Notes under the pieces: generated by a model
Databases searched by the model: none
Seen by the model: the letters and a program-made list of their open reading frames with translations, nothing else
What the model was told of the DNA's origin: nothing
NCBI GenBank assembly: GCA_945882415.1
Contig: CAMCWC010000003.1
Location: forward strand, 143,830-207,829
Length of the DNA stretch: 64,000 bases
Direction of reading: 5' to 3'
Source of the DNA: Chthonomonas calidirosea
GTDB lineage: Bacteria; Armatimonadota; Fimbriimonadia; Fimbriimonadales; Fimbriimonadaceae
In this document: piece after piece, positions 845 through 7,800 of the stretch
Layout: every line of letters begins with the position of its first letter
Numbering within the stretch: position 1 is the stretch's first letter
Translations under genes and position numbers: made by a program

Positions 845-1836
845 GATGTGTGTAGGATGTCGCGGGCAACGGTCTCGCGGATTCGACCCATGAGGTCAGA
901 TTCGATTCCGCGCTGAGTGAGCAGCAAAGCGTTTTTGATGGCGCGCGAATTGCTTCGCCCGTGGCAGATCATGCAGATCCCGTTCAGCCCGAGCAGAGGC
1001 GACCCGCCGATTTCGGCGTAGTCCATGTCCTTGCGTAGCGGCTCCATGACTTGGCGGACGGGCCAGTACAGCGGGCGCATGAGCGGGTGATCGGGCACGT
1101 TCTCCTTGATGACCGAGACAATGAGCTCGGCCAAGCCTTCGCAGGATTTGAGAACGATGTTGCCGGTGAAGGCATCGCAGATCACAACATCGCACGGATC
1201 GAAGAACATGTCTTTGCCTTCGATGTTTCCGGCGAACCATGGGTACTGCTTCAGCAAGTCAAAGGTCTGCTTCGCTACCGCGTTGCCCTTTCCTTCTTCC
1301 TCGCCGACATTGAGCAGGTGAACCTTCGGGTTCTTTCGGCCATAGAGCCGTTCGGAATAGGCCCGGCCTAGCACGGCGAATTGCACCAGGTTGTGAGGTT
1401 CCGCATCGGGAGATGCGCCAGCATCAAGCAGCACGAAGCCACCGTGTTTGTTGGGGAAGAGGCTAACAATTCCTGGGCGGTGAATTCCTTCGACCTGTCG
1501 CCAGGTGAGAAGGGCAAACGCGGTTGTTGCACCGGTGTTTCCGGCCGAAACGAGTCCAAGCGCTTCACCGTCTTTGATCATCCGCGTCGCGACCATCAGG
1601 CTCGAATCCTTCTTTTTGCGGTACGCATCGGTTGGCTTGTCGTCCATCGTCACGATTTGCGTGGCATGGCGCAGGAAGACGTTGCTGGGCAAGGTGCTGG
1701 GCAGGAGCGGCTTAAGGACGGCAAGATCACCCACGAGATGCAGGGGCATGCGAATTTCCGGCGCGGCTAAGAGGACGCCCTCTACAATCGCCTCGGGGGC
1801 GTTATCGCCGCCCATTGCATCAATCGCGATACTCAT
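841..1836 (-). CDS. plsX: Phosphate acyltransferase PlsX
   Basis: PlsX makes acyl-phosphate from acyl-ACP, feeding PlsY in phospholipid synthesis; it is a peripheral membrane enzyme. The 331-residue product is full length for the family and starts MSIAIDAMGGDNAPEAIVEG, the PlsX signature. Other family blocks are SAGNTGATTAF, the DAGASPDAEPHNLVQFA region and CDAFTGNIVLKSCEG. Its ATG overlaps the end of the yceD-like gene and its stop overlaps the fabH start, so the three form one tightly coupled minus-strand unit. This is the widely conserved yceD-(rpmF)-plsX-fabH order. Confidence 0.97.
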   Translation of the reverse strand: MSIAIDAMGGDNAPEAIVEGVLLAAPEIRMPLHLVGDLAVLKPLLPSTLPSNVFLRHATQIVTMDDKPTDAYRKKKDSSLMVATRMIKDGEALGLVSAGNTGATTAFALLTWRQVEGIHRPGIVSLFPNKHGGFVLLDAGASPDAEPHNLVQFAVLGRAYSERLYGRKNPKVHLLNVGEEEGKGNAVAKQTFDLLKQYPWFAGNIEGKDMFFDPCDVVICDAFTGNIVLKSCEGLAELIVSVIKENVPDHPLMRPLYWPVRQVMEPLRKDMDYAEIGGSPLLGLNGICMICHGRSNSRAIKNALLLTQRGIESDLMGRIRETVARDILHTS

Positions 1837-2417
1837 TCAGTTTCTTCTCCGGCCTCAGACTTCTCGCTTGGCTCATCTTTCAACAGCCCAGCAAGCTTTT
1901 GAAATTCCGCACGCGCGGCTTCATTTTTCGTTTTTTGGAGTCCGCGTGCAATGGCAATAGGGCAATCGCCATCCCAGCCGTAGGTGCAAAGTGGCTGAAT
2001 TGGAATCTCCAACAGTAAGTTTTGGCGCAGCAAATTCTCGACGATAAGAGAATTTCCTTCAAAGAGTTCAAATGGTTCGTCCGGAGAGACCTTCGCGACA
2101 TCCTGATGGTTGAGCGAACTCGGGACACCCACAACCGGAAACTGTTCGTCCAGTTGGAATGAGATGGGTAGTTCCAGCGGCTCAGTGCATCGTGCGCACT
2201 CTAGAACCGCAGTTGTGGAGAATTCTCCACTGATAAGTAGTAAGTTGCCGGTACTCACGGCCTCCAAAAAACCGTCCAAAGGGGTGACCAGGTCAAGGTC
2301 CTCCTCTTCGTCCATTTCTGTGGAGATGTCAACTTCAATCCGTCGACCAGGGTGCTGTAGCACATCGTTAAGGTCGAGAAGTTCATCCCGTCGCATGGTG
2401 CGCGCGGAGTGTACCAT
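1833..2417 (-). CDS. yceD: YceD/DUF177 family protein
   Basis: DUF177/YceD proteins are linked to 23S rRNA accumulation and are usually encoded next to rpmF (L32). The 194-residue product has the family's central CARC motif (Cys74, Cys77) in a strand context, a later LLLEIPIQPLC segment (Cys144) and Cys152, so a four-cysteine metal site is possible (inference). An acidic C-terminal tail follows. The ATG at 2417 was kept because an AAAGGTGG-like ribosome-binding site lies about 12 bases upstream; an in-frame ATG seven codons later has none. Unusually, no rpmF lies between this gene and plsX: the two overlap by 4 bp. Confidence 0.85.
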   Translation of the reverse strand: MVHSARTMRRDELLDLNDVLQHPGRRIEVDISTEMDEEEDLDLVTPLDGFLEAVSTGNLLLISGEFSTTAVLECARCTEPLELPISFQLDEQFPVVGVPSSLNHQDVAKVSPDEPFELFEGNSLIVENLLRQNLLLEIPIQPLCTYGWDGDCPIAIARGLQKTKNEAARAEFQKLAGLLKDEPSEKSEAGEETE

Positions 2418-2500
2418 TCACACCGACATCCCACCTTTAGTCTCATTCTTTCGTCGGTACGACGTGGAGGCTGGTGCGTATGTGTATAAGTAGGTTCTGC

Positions 2501-3196
2501 ATGAAGTCACTCCACATCGCTCGCTTGTTCGTCGTTGCTGCCGCTGCGCTCTCCCAGATGGCCCACGCTGCCGATCCGGTCAAATTCAATCGCACTTATG
2601 AATTGAACAGTTCGGTTAAGCACAAGGTTGATCTCCAACTCAACATCGGTGGCCTCGAAGGCAACATCAAGTTCAACGTTGCCACCAAGGTCACGAAGGT
2701 TTCGCCAGAGAAGGTTGAATCCACCGCCATCATCGACGAGGTGACCGCAGAGGTCGGTGGCTCTGACCCAGGGATCCAGGCTGGAGATCTTGTGCGCGAG
2801 TACAACGATAAGCGAGACATCGTGAACGTTACGGGCGGAATTCAGGGTTCGGATCCGTTCCGACTCGCCCTCACCTTGGAGTTCTTTGCCCCAGCCGATG
2901 CGCTGACCGAGGGCAAGGAGGTCACTCAGACTTTGGCGGAAAACAAGACCGCGAGCATCAAGGCTCTGAAGATCGTAACTAAGCTGGTCGGCAAGGAAAA
3001 GGTCGGAGAAACCGAAGGCTTCAAAGTCGTTCAGAAGATCACGGAAGAAGGCGAAGGTGGTCTCACCACCGAATCGACCTTCATCGTTTTGGAGAACGGA
3101 AAGATTCTTTCGGTGGACGCAAAGTTCACAAACATGCCCATTCCGGCGGCCGGACAGTCGGCAACCGGCTCAATCAAAGCCAAGATCGTCGAATAA
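2501..3196 (+). CDS. Exported protein of unknown function
   Basis: I do not recognise a family. The ATG at 2501 is preferred over one nine codons upstream because it starts directly with a signal peptide (MKSLHIARLFVVAAAALSQ) with likely cleavage after AHA, and an AGG lies about 6 bases ahead. The mature part, about 205 residues, is rich in Lys, Glu, Val and Thr and looks all-beta, with alternating short strands and no cysteine or catalytic motif. It is divergent from the yceD operon and followed by a strong hairpin, so it is probably monocistronic. Likely periplasmic. Confidence 0.8.
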   Translation: MKSLHIARLFVVAAAALSQMAHAADPVKFNRTYELNSSVKHKVDLQLNIGGLEGNIKFNVATKVTKVSPEKVESTAIIDEVTAEVGGSDPGIQAGDLVREYNDKRDIVNVTGGIQGSDPFRLALTLEFFAPADALTEGKEVTQTLAENKTASIKALKIVTKLVGKEKVGETEGFKVVQKITEEGEGGLTTESTFIVLENGKILSVDAKFTNMPIPAAGQSATGSIKAKIVE

Positions 3197-3319: not shown

Positions 3320-4735
3320 GTGAGCGCTTTGAGGAACTGGGCGTTATTTTCTATCGCGATTGTAGTGGGAGCCACAGGATGTGGCGGTGCTGGAGGCGGC
3401 TCTAGCTCTGGCGGTGCTGGCGGAGGCGGCGGGGTTGTCCCTGCGTCGGGTCCGAGGGTACTGCTTGAGTCTAAGCCGGGTCAGTTGGAACTATCGTTCC
3501 TTACGGGTCAGGGCCGTAGCACGTTTGCTCCTGGAGATACGCAGGCAAGCATCGAAGTGCCGGATTTCGTGGACTCACGAGGGGCGATTGTTCGCCCACC
3601 GTTGGATGCTCCGCTCCGCCTTCAGCTGAACGGCTATCAAAACTCTATTTTCCGCCTCAACGCGGACGTTTCCACCCTGACCGAGGCAGAAACCGGACGG
3701 CCGTTGAACAGTCGACTGTTCCAGTCGTACGAGCTCTCGGTTACTTCGATCCTGTCGGAAGGGTTCGACAGCTCGTTTGAGTCGTCGGACATTCGCGGTA
3801 TCCCATCCGTGGGCTACCCGATCAATACTCGGCTCTTCCCGGGCCGGTATTCGAACCTACAGCTTTTTGTGAACGACGCCATGTTCTCGGTTGAGACTGA
3901 TGTCGATTCGGGCACCTCGTTCTATCAGTTCAACGAGCCTGAATTCCAGAGAGCAAACGGATTGGATCTTTCTCCACGAATTTCCAGCTCGCTCAGCGAC
4001 TACCTGACCTTCGATCTTCGAGGAATGGCATCCGCGGACCGACCTAAGCTGTTGACCGGACGAGACGCCTTCCGCGTCTTCTTCAGCGGAGACAACTACG
4101 CCCTTGCTAGCGGACTCGGCTACACCGATGTTCCTGCAGGAGATCAGACGAACGGCGAGTTCAATGCGGTGACCCGCAACGACCTTGATCCAGATGCGGC
4201 AGCTAACAACTTGATCGACGGTAAGTTCTCGCTTCCGGGTCAGCTTTCGCTGGTCCCTGGAGTTCAGGGTTCGACCCCTGGAACCTACTCGCTGCTTCAG
4301 GTGAATCCTTCGGATCCGTTCCTGCTGTCGAGAATCACCTCGCTTCAGGGAATTTGGCGAGAGCACCACAAGCTTGTTGGCAACATGCCAGAAGCTATGG
4401 CGATTGCCTTCCCAAGCAGCCGAGACAATGAAGAGCAGGACGTTGTTCTGATCCGACAGACTCTTGAGCGAACCGGAAGCACCGTCACCGCGGCCCGCGT
4501 CACTCAGTTGTACTACGGCGTTCAGAACTTGAACACCGGACAGGTTCGACTGTATCCGCTCCGCAACTTGCCGACCGGTTCCAAGGTTGGAGAAGTGTTT
4601 GCCACCGTTGGCGACATCAAGGATCGCTCCGGCGCAGCCACCGTGTCGGTACAGCAAGCAAGATCGGCAACCCTTTCGGGTCTCGCCATCGCTGGCTTCC
4701 CAACTAGCGTTCCTCTCGTCATCTACCGCTACTAA
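3320..4735 (+). CDS. Lipoprotein of unknown function with Gly-rich linker
   Basis: No family recognised. The 471-residue product starts at a GTG and opens with a hydrophobic segment ending in ATGC, a lipobox with Cys21, followed by a Gly/Ser-rich linker of about 20 residues, so it is predicted to be a lipid-anchored surface or periplasmic protein. The body is rich in Ser, Arg, Leu and Thr, with many short predicted strands, and has no obvious catalytic motif. It occupies the position immediately upstream of dop where actinobacterial loci carry the proteasomal ATPase; the 16-bp gap to dop allows co-transcription, but no functional link can be seen. Confidence 0.75.
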   Translation: MSALRNWALFSIAIVVGATGCGGAGGGSSSGGAGGGGGVVPASGPRVLLESKPGQLELSFLTGQGRSTFAPGDTQASIEVPDFVDSRGAIVRPPLDAPLRLQLNGYQNSIFRLNADVSTLTEAETGRPLNSRLFQSYELSVTSILSEGFDSSFESSDIRGIPSVGYPINTRLFPGRYSNLQLFVNDAMFSVETDVDSGTSFYQFNEPEFQRANGLDLSPRISSSLSDYLTFDLRGMASADRPKLLTGRDAFRVFFSGDNYALASGLGYTDVPAGDQTNGEFNAVTRNDLDPDAAANNLIDGKFSLPGQLSLVPGVQGSTPGTYSLLQVNPSDPFLLSRITSLQGIWREHHKLVGNMPEAMAIAFPSSRDNEEQDVVLIRQTLERTGSTVTAARVTQLYYGVQNLNTGQVRLYPLRNLPTGSKVGEVFATVGDIKDRSGAATVSVQQARSATLSGLAIAGFPTSVPLVIYRY

Positions 4736-4751
4736 GTACGTAGAACCGAGC

Positions 4752-6209
4752 ATGATGCGCCCAATTCTCGCGGGCCTCGATACCGAGTATGGATTCTCGG
4801 TCGAGGCCCGTGGTGCTGAAAACCAGATTGAAGATTCACAAACGTTCGTCCGAACCTTTCCCGGGACAGCGTTTGTGGGCTGGGATTATCGGCACGAAGC
4901 TCCTCGATCCGACCTGCGCGGCTTTCGCCTAGACGCGCTTGCCTTTGACCCTGAGGACGCAAAGTTCGATGCAGGACGAACCTACGGCTCATCCGTCGAA
5001 ATCCGCTCCGATCGTGTTCTAACCACCGGTGGGCGATTTTATAACGACCACGGTCATCCCGAATACGCCACCCCTGAGTGCTTCACCCTACGCGGCTTAG
5101 TTGGCCACGAACTCGCGGGCGATGAGATTCTTCGGCAAACTGCCCGCGCCTACGAAGACAAGACTGGCAAGTCAGTAGCCCTGTACAAGAACAACACCGA
5201 TTTCCACGGCGCATCTTGGGGGACCCACGAGAATTACTTGGTCTCGCGTTCTGTCGGCTACGAAAAGCTTTTCAAGGGTGTTATGCCCATGCTGCTCGTC
5301 CGGCAAATCTTAACCGGCTCCGGCAAAGTTGGTTCCGAGACCGGCGCAAAGGTGCCGTACCAAATCAGCCAGCGCGCTGACTTCATTGTCGAACCCGCTA
5401 ACGCCGAGACCCTTTACCGCCGGCCGCTCTTTAACACCCGCGACGAGCCGCATTCTCGCCCGACCGACTTCATACGCCTCCACGTGATTTCCGGGGACGC
5501 GAACATGATCGCAGCCAGCACGTTCCGCAAGGTCGGGCTTGTTAAACTCGCCGTCGCCCTCACCGAAATCGGAGCGGCTCCGCTCTGGGACATCAAAGAC
5601 CCGGTGCGCTCGTTCCAGTCGATCAGCCGAGATGAGGGTTACCGCTTCGAAATTCCTCTAGCCAAGGACAGTTGGACCACCGCCGACGAAATCCTTGAGT
5701 CCTACTTCTCCGCCGCGGAACGATTCCTAGACCTTGACGAAGAACTGCAATCCATCATCGATGAGGGTCGAAAGCTGCTCCAAAGCCTGCGAACCGACTT
5801 TCCGTCGTTCGCCCGGACCGTCGACTGGGCGGCCAAGCGACAGATGCTGGAGATGTACATGCAAGATTCCGGAACAGACTGGAACGACCCCGCTCTGCGA
5901 TCTTACGACTTGGAGTACCACAACCTGAATGCGGACGAGAGCCTGCATTCAGCCCTAGTGGATATGGATCTAGTCGTGCCAAACCCTGAAGCGATCTGGG
6001 AGCCGGAGCATTCGCGGGCCTGGGTGCGTGGCTATGCGATTCAGAACTTTGCAAGCCACTTGAAATCCGCCGCTTGGCGATCGCTAACTTTTGAGGTCAA
6101 TGGCCAGCAAGAAGATGTGGAACTTTGGCCCGACCAGACGTACAATCTGGAACTGGACGCGCTTGCGAACGTAAATACGTTTATCCAAGCCATGAGAGAG
6201 ATGAAATGA
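4752..6209 (+). CDS. dop: Dop-like enzyme of the Pup/UBact system (depupylase/deamidase family)
   Basis: Dop and PafA are glutamine-synthetase-fold enzymes that remove or attach prokaryotic ubiquitin-like proteins on substrate lysines. The 485-residue product has the nucleotide-binding start GLDTEYGFS, the motif YNDHGHPEYATPEC with the conserved Asp, NNTDFHGASWGTHENYLVSR, and NTRDEPHSRP followed by RLHVISGDANM. It also has the WDYxxExPxxDxRGF stretch (about residues 43-58) that matches the Dop loop absent from PafA, plus an ISRD segment typical of Dop, so I assign Dop rather than ligase. The start is the first of two adjacent ATGs, 16 bp after the lipoprotein gene; the stop overlaps the UBact start. 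Because the partner already ends in Glu, deamidation would be unnecessary and hydrolysis is the likelier role (inference). Confidence 0.88.
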   Translation: MMRPILAGLDTEYGFSVEARGAENQIEDSQTFVRTFPGTAFVGWDYRHEAPRSDLRGFRLDALAFDPEDAKFDAGRTYGSSVEIRSDRVLTTGGRFYNDHGHPEYATPECFTLRGLVGHELAGDEILRQTARAYEDKTGKSVALYKNNTDFHGASWGTHENYLVSRSVGYEKLFKGVMPMLLVRQILTGSGKVGSETGAKVPYQISQRADFIVEPANAETLYRRPLFNTRDEPHSRPTDFIRLHVISGDANMIAASTFRKVGLVKLAVALTEIGAAPLWDIKDPVRSFQSISRDEGYRFEIPLAKDSWTTADEILESYFSAAERFLDLDEELQSIIDEGRKLLQSLRTDFPSFARTVDWAAKRQMLEMYMQDSGTDWNDPALRSYDLEYHNLNADESLHSALVDMDLVVPNPEAIWEPEHSRAWVRGYAIQNFASHLKSAAWRSLTFEVNGQQEDVELWPDQTYNLELDALANVNTFIQAMREMK

Positions 6210-6388
6210 CGGACGGAGATCGACTCACAAGACCGCTGAACCCTAGCCCAGACCGAAAGATGGGCGATGAATCTGGACCAAGTGCGCCCGACGTGCAGAA
6301 GCCGGAAGGCGGAAACGAACTCCTGCGCCGAATGAAGAAGATCGACCCCGATCAGGCGAAAAAATATCGCCAGCGGTCAGGCGAATAA
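6206..6388 (+). CDS. ubact: UBact, prokaryotic ubiquitin-like protein (60 aa)
   Basis: UBact is a Pup-like, probably disordered modifier found in several Gram-negative phyla with bacterial proteasomes. The 60-residue product is rich in Pro, Asp, Gly and Lys, has a segment NELLRRMKKIDPDQAKKY able to form the helix used for ATPase docking in Pup, and ends RQRSGE, i.e. the Gly-Glu terminus ready for conjugation through the Glu side chain. It starts at an ATGA overlap with dop and ends at a TAATG overlap with prcB, so all three should be made together. The dop-modifier-prcB order is identical to the dop-pup-prcB order of actinobacteria. Confidence 0.9.
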   Translation: MTDGDRLTRPLNPSPDRKMGDESGPSAPDVQKPEGGNELLRRMKKIDPDQAKKYRQRSGE

Positions 6389-7140
6389 TGGCAACTGCCT
6401 TCGCTGGTCCAGCCCGCGACTTTAGCGAGTTGGTGACCTTGGCCCCGATGGGTACGCACGACGAAGTTCACGGCACGACCGTGCTTGCCGTTCGTTACCG
6501 TGGCGGCGTCTTGATCCTTTCGGACCGCCGAGCCACCGCCGGAAACCTCATCATGTTCGACAAGGCCGAAAAGGTCCTTGCCCTTGATGACAAGATGGTC
6601 GTGGCCATCTCGGGTGCCTTTGCCAAGTCCATCGAGGTCTGTCGGTACCTCAAGCACAACTTTAAGTACTACCGTCGGGTGACGCTCAACGAGATGTCGC
6701 TGGAAGGGAAGCTCGCTGAAATCAGCCGAGCCCTCGCGGGCAATGCTCCCATGGCGATGCAAGGCATCGGCCTTTTCCTGCCGATCGTCGCGGCCTATGA
6801 CGAGAAGAAGGAAGACTTCGCCGTCTACTTCTTCGACGGAGCTGGAGCGCGATTTGAAAACGGAGCCTATGCTTGTGCAGGCTCTGGTTCGGAGCGAATC
6901 CGCGGCGTGTTTGAATACATCGCCCGCGTTAAGGGTCCATGGGAGAGCCGTGAGCTGGACGACGTGCTTATGGACGGGCTGGAAATGCTCGACATCGCCG
7001 CCGACCTTGATTCGGCAACCGGTGGATTCCAACAGTTGCCGCCAATCGTGCGCATCCTCGATCGAGATGGCAACCGGCCGGTCGAAGAAAAGCACCTGGC
7101 CGAGCTTGTCGGACAGGTGCTAGAACGGAAACGAGCCTAA
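6388..7140 (+). CDS. prcB: 20S proteasome beta subunit
   Basis: This is the Ntn-hydrolase proteolytic subunit of the bacterial 20S core. After a 29-residue propeptide ending in Gly29, the catalytic Thr30 (mature Thr1) begins TTVLAVRYRGG. Asp46 (mature Asp17, in SDRRATAG) and Lys62 (mature Lys33) complete the catalytic set, so it should be active after processing. The length of 250 residues is normal. It is coupled to UBact by TAATG. It is followed after 9 bp by a convergent gene, so no prcA or pafA follows as in actinobacteria; a partner alpha subunit must be encoded elsewhere or be absent. Not to be confused with the unrelated PrcB_C-domain protein at 49.5-50.4 kb. Confidence 0.95.
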   Translation: MATAFAGPARDFSELVTLAPMGTHDEVHGTTVLAVRYRGGVLILSDRRATAGNLIMFDKAEKVLALDDKMVVAISGAFAKSIEVCRYLKHNFKYYRRVTLNEMSLEGKLAEISRALAGNAPMAMQGIGLFLPIVAAYDEKKEDFAVYFFDGAGARFENGAYACAGSGSERIRGVFEYIARVKGPWESRELDDVLMDGLEMLDIAADLDSATGGFQQLPPIVRILDRDGNRPVEEKHLAELVGQVLERKRA

Positions 7141-7149
7141 GCTTCTAGC

Positions 7150-7653
7150 TTAGAACTTGTAACCAAGGAACAGGCCGAACGAGTTCGGCTGGACGCCGTT
7201 CTTCTTGTCGGCGAGGTACAGAGTTGCTTCGCCGATGAGGGACGTGCTGAGCTCGATTCCAACGCCGAGTCGTGCGCCAAGCACGGTTTCGGATCCGGCG
7301 AAATCGACGACGGTTGCGCCGAGACCGAAGAAGGCGTAAGTTCGATTTCCTTCCGAGTTAGCCTTTCCGAAGATTCGCTGGTTAAGAGCGATTGGGAAGA
7401 CCGATCCCTTGTCCTTTCCGAAAGTCTTAGCATGGTAATCGAGCGAGAGGTAAGTCTCGCCGCCCTTGATAAGAGGCGAAGTGAAGGTGTAGTCGATTCC
7501 AACGCCGAAGAACGTGCTGCTAACGTTCGAGTACGACGAGTCGATCGGGAAAACAACGCCGCCGCGGACGGTGAAGTTGTATGGATAGCCTTGTGCCTGG
7601 GCACCAGCCACGATGCCGAATGCGGCCACTGCCGCCCAAATTGCCTTATTCAT
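7150..7653 (-). CDS. Small outer-membrane beta-barrel-like protein
   Basis: The ATG at 7653 begins a clean signal peptide (MNKAIWAAVAAFGIVAGAQAQ, cut after AQA), with AGGAG 11 bases upstream; a longer reading upstream adds only a basic non-signal stretch. The mature 147 residues alternate hydrophobic and polar residues with many Gly and aromatic positions and end in YKF, a terminal Phe typical of outer-membrane barrels recognised by the BAM machinery. About eight strands could fit. Specific function unknown. It lies convergent to prcB with a 9-bp gap. Confidence 0.75.
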   Translation of the reverse strand: MNKAIWAAVAAFGIVAGAQAQGYPYNFTVRGGVVFPIDSSYSNVSSTFFGVGIDYTFTSPLIKGGETYLSLDYHAKTFGKDKGSVFPIALNQRIFGKANSEGNRTYAFFGLGATVVDFAGSETVLGARLGVGIELSTSLIGEATLYLADKKNGVQPNSFGLFLGYKF

Positions 7654-7800
7654 GTTTAAGTGTTCTCCTAACAAGAGGACGATTTCTCGGCCCCGTGCTC
7701 GCTCTCGAAGTCTGCAAATCGAGATGTTCATCACAATGTGACGAAGCACCCTAGTTTAGCTTCAACGAGCAACCCGTTGTACTAGACGTAAAATGAGGGC

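Follow-up and report, generated by a model that had tools for sequence, protein, structure and literature searches.

A dispersed UBact-proteasome gene set in the Fimbriimonadaceae and the predicted role of its Dop-type enzyme

The genome analyzed here carries a dispersed UBact-proteasome gene set with every expected part. Three of the genes, dop, ubact and prcB, lie together in a 64,000-nt stretch of contig C3 (the whole stretch is referred to below as the window), and a PafA-type ligase gene, a prcA-like gene and an ARC gene are found on other contigs of the same genome (3.36 Mb in 38 contigs, 99% complete). We consider it probable (approximately 0.85) that Dop, UBact and PrcB, together with the unlinked PafA, PrcA and ARC, would constitute a working tag-and-degrade pathway in which Dop mainly removes UBact. 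The gene set, its dispersal in the family, the switching of the tag end between Glu and Gln, and the presence of Dop with its catalytic residues in both states can be read from the sequences, and from these we infer each of the reactions.

The dop-ubact-prcB locus and its partner genes

The genes dop (4752 to 6209, 485 aa), ubact (6206 to 6388, 60 aa) and prcB (6388 to 7140) are all on the + strand, where a preliminary description of this DNA had placed them. The junctions are also as described there, with an ATGA overlap at 6206 to 6209 formed by the dop stop and the ubact start, and a TAATG overlap at 6386 to 6390 formed by the ubact stop and the prcB start. The order dop-modifier-prcB is, as had been noted, that of the actinobacterial Pup-proteasome locus. 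A convergent barrel-like gene (7150 to 7749, - strand) ends 9 bases past prcB, again as reported; it is a flank outside the unit. Among the nearest Dop relatives in a named collection are records labeled Armatimonadetes, Fimbriimonas or Fimbriimonadaceae, on which ground the family of the window (code f1) is referred to as Fimbriimonadaceae-like. For comparison within the family, 76 of the 79 UBact loci were taken in, that of the window included (those of G113, G114 and G115 were left out), and 6 of the 76 were placed by the dop match and not by the UBact match (G077, G105, G110, G111, G112 and G137). The barrel-like gene has a homolog in only 31 of these 76 loci.

The dop product is a Dop-type GS-fold enzyme and a predicted UBact deconjugase/deamidase. 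It scores 412.7 bits against Pup_ligase (PF03136; gathering cut-off, 25), 351 bits against the NCBIfam Dop model (TIGR03688) versus 253 bits against the PafA model, and 262 bits against PDB sequences of Dop versus 170 bits for PafA. Both NCBIfam equivalog cut-offs are missed (351 versus 492 bits for Dop), and the enzyme is therefore named Dop-type by comparison with PafA and not filed in the equivalog. Residues 44 to 58 (WDYRHEAPRSDLRGF; 4881 to 4925, + strand) align to the loop of the PDB Dops and contain the Dop-loop motif W44-D45-Y46, E49, P51, D54 and R56-G57-F58. Among the family Dops, W44, E49, P51, D54, R56 and G57 are invariant in the 74 of 76 rows that have a residue there, and the strict full pattern matches 61 and fails in 15. 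The enzyme has a DHGHPEY signature in addition to the Dop loop; the positions of the DHxHPEY signature are those listed in the accessible text of PMC7947786. Asp99 (codon at 5046 to 5048, + strand) aligns with the catalytic Asp94 of the 4b0r Dop chain, and Arg208, Arg230, Asp231, Glu232, Arg242 and His244 are kept in all 76 family loci. The first Glu of the Dop E-T-E motif is replaced by Asp at residue 10 (4779 to 4781) in 20 of the 76 family Dops, including that of the window.

In a Dop/PafA tree of 57 rows, three of them PDB references (two for Dop, one for PafA), the enzyme groups with the Dops and not with the PafAs, in agreement with the earlier proposal that this single GS-fold enzyme is Dop. 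The Dop and PafA states each require one change on this tree; the branch dividing all Dops from all PafAs has a weak support of 45, and the PafA reference forms a long branch.

UBact exceeds both curated cut-offs (PF20513, 79.2 versus 27.8 bits; NF033388, 80.6 versus 35 bits). This ubiquitin-like tag has the C terminus RQRSGE, with GAA at 6383 to 6385 as the final codon. PrcB is a proteasome beta subunit with a predicted 29-residue propeptide and the codon of the mature Thr1 at 6475. It matches Proteasome (PF00227) with 88 bits, above the gathering cut-off, falls below the NCBIfam 20S_bact_beta equivalog cut-off (TIGR03690; 137 versus 192 bits), and has proteasome beta subunits, PrcB included, as its best PDB matches. 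The residues Thr1, Asp17 and Lys33, which had been reported as kept, are indeed present and are invariant in all 76 family loci.

The preliminary description had predicted that a ligase and an alpha subunit would be encoded elsewhere and had proposed a genome search for prcA, pafA and an ARC/Mpa-like ATPase; we found candidates for all three, the PafA-type gene on C19 and the PrcA-like and ATPase genes on C6. A whole-genome search with PF03136, up to an E value of 10, gave exactly two matches, dop on C3 and the C19 gene. The C19 protein scores 281.5 bits with the PafA model, under the NCBIfam equivalog cut-off of 551 bits (TIGR03686), versus 270.8 bits with the Dop model, and among PDB sequences it matches a Dop best (217 bits, versus 188 bits for PafA). 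It displays IDAVGSHLEYATAE at the site of the DHAHPEY of Dop, and in the alignment both the Dop loop and the DHxHPEY signature are absent. In the tree it is found inside a set of 15 (support, 100) with the PafAs that intact clusters encode at their pafA position. Tree and cluster position of the homologs support the identification of the C19 enzyme as PafA-type, and hence as the putative conjugation ligase of this genome.

The PrcA-like gene (C6:137075-137743) is the only other PF00227 match of the genome. Its product is below the NCBIfam 20S_bact_alpha equivalog cut-off (TIGR03691; 66 versus 139 bits); all 8 distinct PDB sequences that it matches are alpha-subunit chains, two of them from entries with "alpha and beta subunits" in the name. 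Its homologs directly follow prcB in intact clusters, and this position supports the view that the C6 gene encodes a diverged alpha subunit. All 11 family PrcAs looked at have kept the Lys of a K-[VIL]-[FY]-E-x-Y-D stretch, which we take to be the pocket Lys. The ATPase gene (C6:59567-61033), 76 kb from the prcA-like gene, gives the one strong ARC match of the genome, at 438 bits, under the NCBIfam pup_AAA (ARC/Mpa) equivalog cut-off of 505 bits (TIGR03689), and the best PDB matches of its product are named proteasome-associated ATPase. Homologs of the ligase, Dop, the alpha and beta subunits and the AAA ATPase, the gene set of a UBact system, are accordingly all present in one genome.

The tag end, the ATPase tail and the predicted pathway

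In the pathway that we propose, PafA would join the side-chain carboxylate of the UBact Glu to substrate lysines, and with UBact already ending in Glu it would need no prior deamidation. ARC would unfold UBact-tagged proteins into the PrcA/PrcB barrel, and Dop would cleave UBact off tagged proteins and recycle the tag.

The last residue of UBact is Gln in 58 and Glu in 18 of the 76 family loci. On a tree of Dop plus PrcB (78 rows, two of them outgroup loci), the Glu/Gln state requires 16 changes, at least 12 of which are forced by strongly supported branches. This number is hardly below that for shuffled labels, which averaged 17.0 changes and gave a number as low in 153 of 500 shuffles, and Glu and Gln tags show no clustering on the tree. 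The nearest relative, G088 (locus L132), has a 60-residue UBact identical to that of the window except for E60Q, a C/G base difference at the first position of the codon; between the two genomes the synonymous distance is 0.4 in ubact and 1.1 to 1.9 in the other genes, and dN/dS of dop is 0.043. The preliminary description had argued that a modifier already ending in Glu leaves Dop no deamidation job. This holds for the present lineage but not for the family in general, in which most tags, including that of the nearest relative, end in Gln.

The catalytic positions of Dop do not follow the tag end. Asp99 is Asp in all 18 Glu-type and in 57 of the 58 Gln-type loci, the remaining one being a gap. 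A comparison with an all-Gln sister could be made for 10 of the 18 Glu lineages; Dop had evolved faster on the Glu side in 4 of these, and so had PrcB in 4. Across the phylum, 153 of 167 genomes with an over-cut-off UBact match PF03136 two or more times (some matches being fragments), and 10 of the 14 genomes with one match are <90% complete. The presence of Dop is in part a matter of construction, since the 48 loci compared from outside the family were all found with Dop and the 6 family loci mentioned above were placed by it. That Dop and its catalytic residues persist under both Glu and Gln favors deconjugation as its conserved job, and the likely role that had been predicted for Dop fits these comparative data. 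Retention by itself is no proof of deconjugation, since Gln returns often and Dop may be kept just because it has to survive until the next Glu-to-Gln change.

It is also conceivable, although we judge it rather unlikely, that Dop is kept mainly as a deamidase, the Glu-ended UBact being a transient neutral state from which lineages return to Gln. The prevalence of Gln and the unclustered distribution of the two states would agree with this. The equal conservation of the Dop catalytic positions in the 18 Glu and 58 Gln lineages and the lack of a Dop speed-up in the Glu lineages speak against it, as do, more weakly, the UBact-bearing loci of Poribacteria and Nitrospirales that we examined, all of which are Glu-ended and all of which hold Dop; the point is weak because these loci were found with Dop. 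Deconjugation remains the preferred role. For Pup, the available portions of PMC3511204 and PMC12288473 argue that Dop persists alongside Glu-ended tags, where it would serve chiefly in depupylation. The argument from retention is thus already known for Pup, and what is new here is the frequency of Glu/Gln switching inside one family.

The predicted step from tag to proteasome depends on ARC. According to the parts of PMC8755798 and PMC8142254 available to us, Mpa uses a GQYL motif for docking, and archaeal and eukaryotic ATPases use HbYX. We compared the tails of 51 complete ARC genes, 49 of them distinct, from Armatimonadota, Poribacteria, Nitrospirales, one Acetothermia record and others. 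A penultimate Tyr is found in 0 of the 49 distinct tails, and the GQYL/HbYX docking motif is absent from them. In all 49, the last two residues are drawn from I, V and L, and the entropy is 1.0 bit at each of these two positions and 2.3 to 3.3 bits at the preceding 13. As a control, both last residues are I, V or L in only 1 of 145 Dop, 3 of 134 PrcB, 1 of 43 PrcA and 2 of 33 PafA tails. An example of an ARC gene with an aliphatic tail is at 1450 to 3114 (- strand) of locus L007. The simplest reading is that the aliphatic end of ARC may be another docking tail, the alternative being that ARC does not dock.

If ARC and the core were undocked, UBact would be a regulatory tag used without proteasome coupling, as in corynebacteria, and PrcA and PrcB would be acting alone or decaying. 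This would accommodate the lack of GQYL/HbYX in every distinct ARC tail and the loss of prcA from its place beside prcB, and the accessible text of PMC3511204 describes ATPases without the docking motif in actinobacteria that lack a proteasome. We nevertheless regard it as quite improbable. The ARC tail is not random but conserved as two aliphatic residues, Thr1, Asp17 and Lys33 of PrcB are invariant throughout the family loci, dN/dS between the window genome and G088 is low for both prcA (0.025) and prcB (0.028), and PrcA is retained in most genomes of the family (78 of 85). A tag-and-degrade pathway with a coupled proteasome remains our preferred reading.

Dispersal of the gene set and the lipoprotein gene

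The dispersed layout is the usual one in the family of the window. Of its 85 genomes, 83 have a PF03136 match, 80 have ARC and 79 have UBact. In all 8 single-contig genomes (G077, G080, G118, G125, G134, G135, G150 and G153), every part is present and the four pieces are apart; the closest pair, ARC and prcA, are 7.4 kb from each other in G077, and the closest pair in the other seven is separated by about 76 kb or more. The probability that the C6 and C19 genes are metagenome binning errors and that the system is incomplete is therefore negligible, even for an assembly in 38 contigs, as these 8 relatives contradict it and the nearest relative, G088, has pafA, prcA and ARC with 93 to 97% identity. 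The stretches around pafA (10 relatives), prcA (10) and ARC (9) contain no other gene of the system, except for ARC near prcA in G077.

The genes dop, ubact and prcB are together in all 76 family loci. A gap of about 2 kb separates dop and ubact in L174 and L175, the two members of genus g22; the corresponding gap is 264 bases in L181, and in L182 ubact and prcB are 677 bases apart (automatic start call). Two genomes of 1.5 Mb and 97% completeness, G132 and G133, had no match to UBact, PF03136, ARC, PrcA or the lipoprotein under the thresholds applied, an apparent loss of the whole system.

Outside the family we sampled 48 loci (L076 to L124 without L082), including Chthonomonadaceae, Poribacteria and Nitrospirales records. 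The order ARC-dop-ubact-prcB-prcA-pafA is intact in 34 of them; in the other 14 at least one of the six genes is missing from the stretch, many of these being at contig ends. ARC is gone from the cluster in sister families within the order, with dop to pafA still linked in G172, G173, G174 and G176, and in genera g41 and g45 pafA is gone in addition to ARC. Family f2 is mixed, with dop-ubact-prcB-prcA kept in G067. In another f2 genome, G072 (L218 and L219), pafA and dop are neighbors and ubact is alone on another contig, with no prcB within 9 kb. Extra neighboring PF03136-like matches, mostly long open frames, occur beside the normal two in G044:C582, G046:C18 and G055:C14 and are possibly further amidoligases. 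A single ancestral cluster appears to have been broken up step by step, the dispersed state being the end of the process, so that the amounts of PrcA and PrcB would now have to be matched by separate promoters.

The preliminary description had also held that the cluster stops at the three genes. No prcA, pafA or ATPase gene adjoins them, as it said, but the lipoprotein gene that it took as the upstream edge is not one. This gene (3320 to 4735, + strand), for an exported protein with lipobox Cys21, ends 16 bases upstream of dop, and in 70 of the 76 family loci, window counted, the gene immediately before dop, in the same orientation, is this one or a homolog, which makes it the first gene of a conserved unit. 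The gap to dop is no more than 25 bases in 67 of the 70, with many overlaps (the start call is approximate). The six loci without an adjoining lipoprotein gene are L142 and L176, at contig edges, L158, and the genus g31 members L189, L190 and L191. By genome, the lipoprotein is present in 78 of the 85 in the family and in 75 of its 79 UBact genomes, and none was found in the 28 genomes that represent the other families of this order. Cys21 is invariant in 28 aligned rows (starts chosen). The window lipoprotein has no Pfam match, and one of the 28 rows weakly matched one phage family; the predicted structure is mostly beta and bears only a weak resemblance to Bacteroides adhesion proteins.

Beyond the lipoprotein gene, a divergent conserved flank (841 to 2417, - strand) holds two genes which we take to be plsX and a YceD-like gene. 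In the loci of relatives, a YceD-like homolog is found beside the lipoprotein gene in 25 of 28 and a plsX homolog in 24 of 28. In G108 (L245, G108:C1:330000-339000), where dop-ubact-prcB occupies a different contig, the lipoprotein gene is with the YceD-like gene and plsX. It is followed about 0.85 kb downstream by ARC in the same orientation, and the interval contains an ORF on the opposite strand.

As a tentative extension, which we think doubtful, UBact proteasomes might be a separate branch of the bacterial proteasomes, with a [VI][IVL]-COOH end lacking tyrosine as the means by which the ATPase binds the alpha ring in place of GQYL or HbYX, and in the Fimbriimonadaceae the operon of dop, ubact and prcB might have gained a surface lipoprotein as a dedicated fourth product that links tagging to the envelope. 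Several observations argue against a functional link between the lipoprotein and the dop unit: plsX and the YceD-like gene are also kept beside it, genus g31 manages without it, three genomes that gave no UBact match still have it (G086, G109 and G122, all <90% complete), and G108 has kept it beside plsX and the YceD-like gene, apart from dop-ubact-prcB.

Comparison with known systems

The UBact conjugation and proteasome system was reportedly described by Lehmann et al. in 2017. The set found here agrees with it in having a PF20513/NF033388 tag together with Dop, PafA, PrcA, PrcB and ARC homologs in one genome, and differs in that the genes are at four sites instead of in one cluster and that dop has a family-specific lipoprotein gene beside it. 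A dispersed set with every expected part is carried by most members of a large family of Armatimonadota; a 2026 review (PMC13022661) continues to place bacterial core particles mainly in Actinomycetales and Nitrospirales. Two tags that are identical but for the final Glu or Gln, both accompanied by Dop, provide a natural experiment that could separate the deamidase and deconjugase roles of this enzyme, and the lack of tyrosine in the ATPase tail suggests a way of docking that differs from those of the proteasomal ATPases studied in detail.

The Dop loop and a Thr1 beta subunit are shared with the actinobacterial Pup-proteasome system, in which both Gln- and Glu-ended tags are known from the available text of PMC3511204 and PMC12288473. 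In contrast to that system, the tag here is UBact (SGE/SGQ) and not Pup (GGE/GGQ), prcA, pafA and ARC are unlinked, and ARC is without GQYL. Corynebacterial pupylation is similar in having a Glu-ended tag with Dop retained, which the accessible part of PMC3511204 explains by depupylation, but it operates in the absence of a proteasome, whereas proteasome subunit genes are present here. The gene set of the window genome is new in its arrangement and not in its kind.
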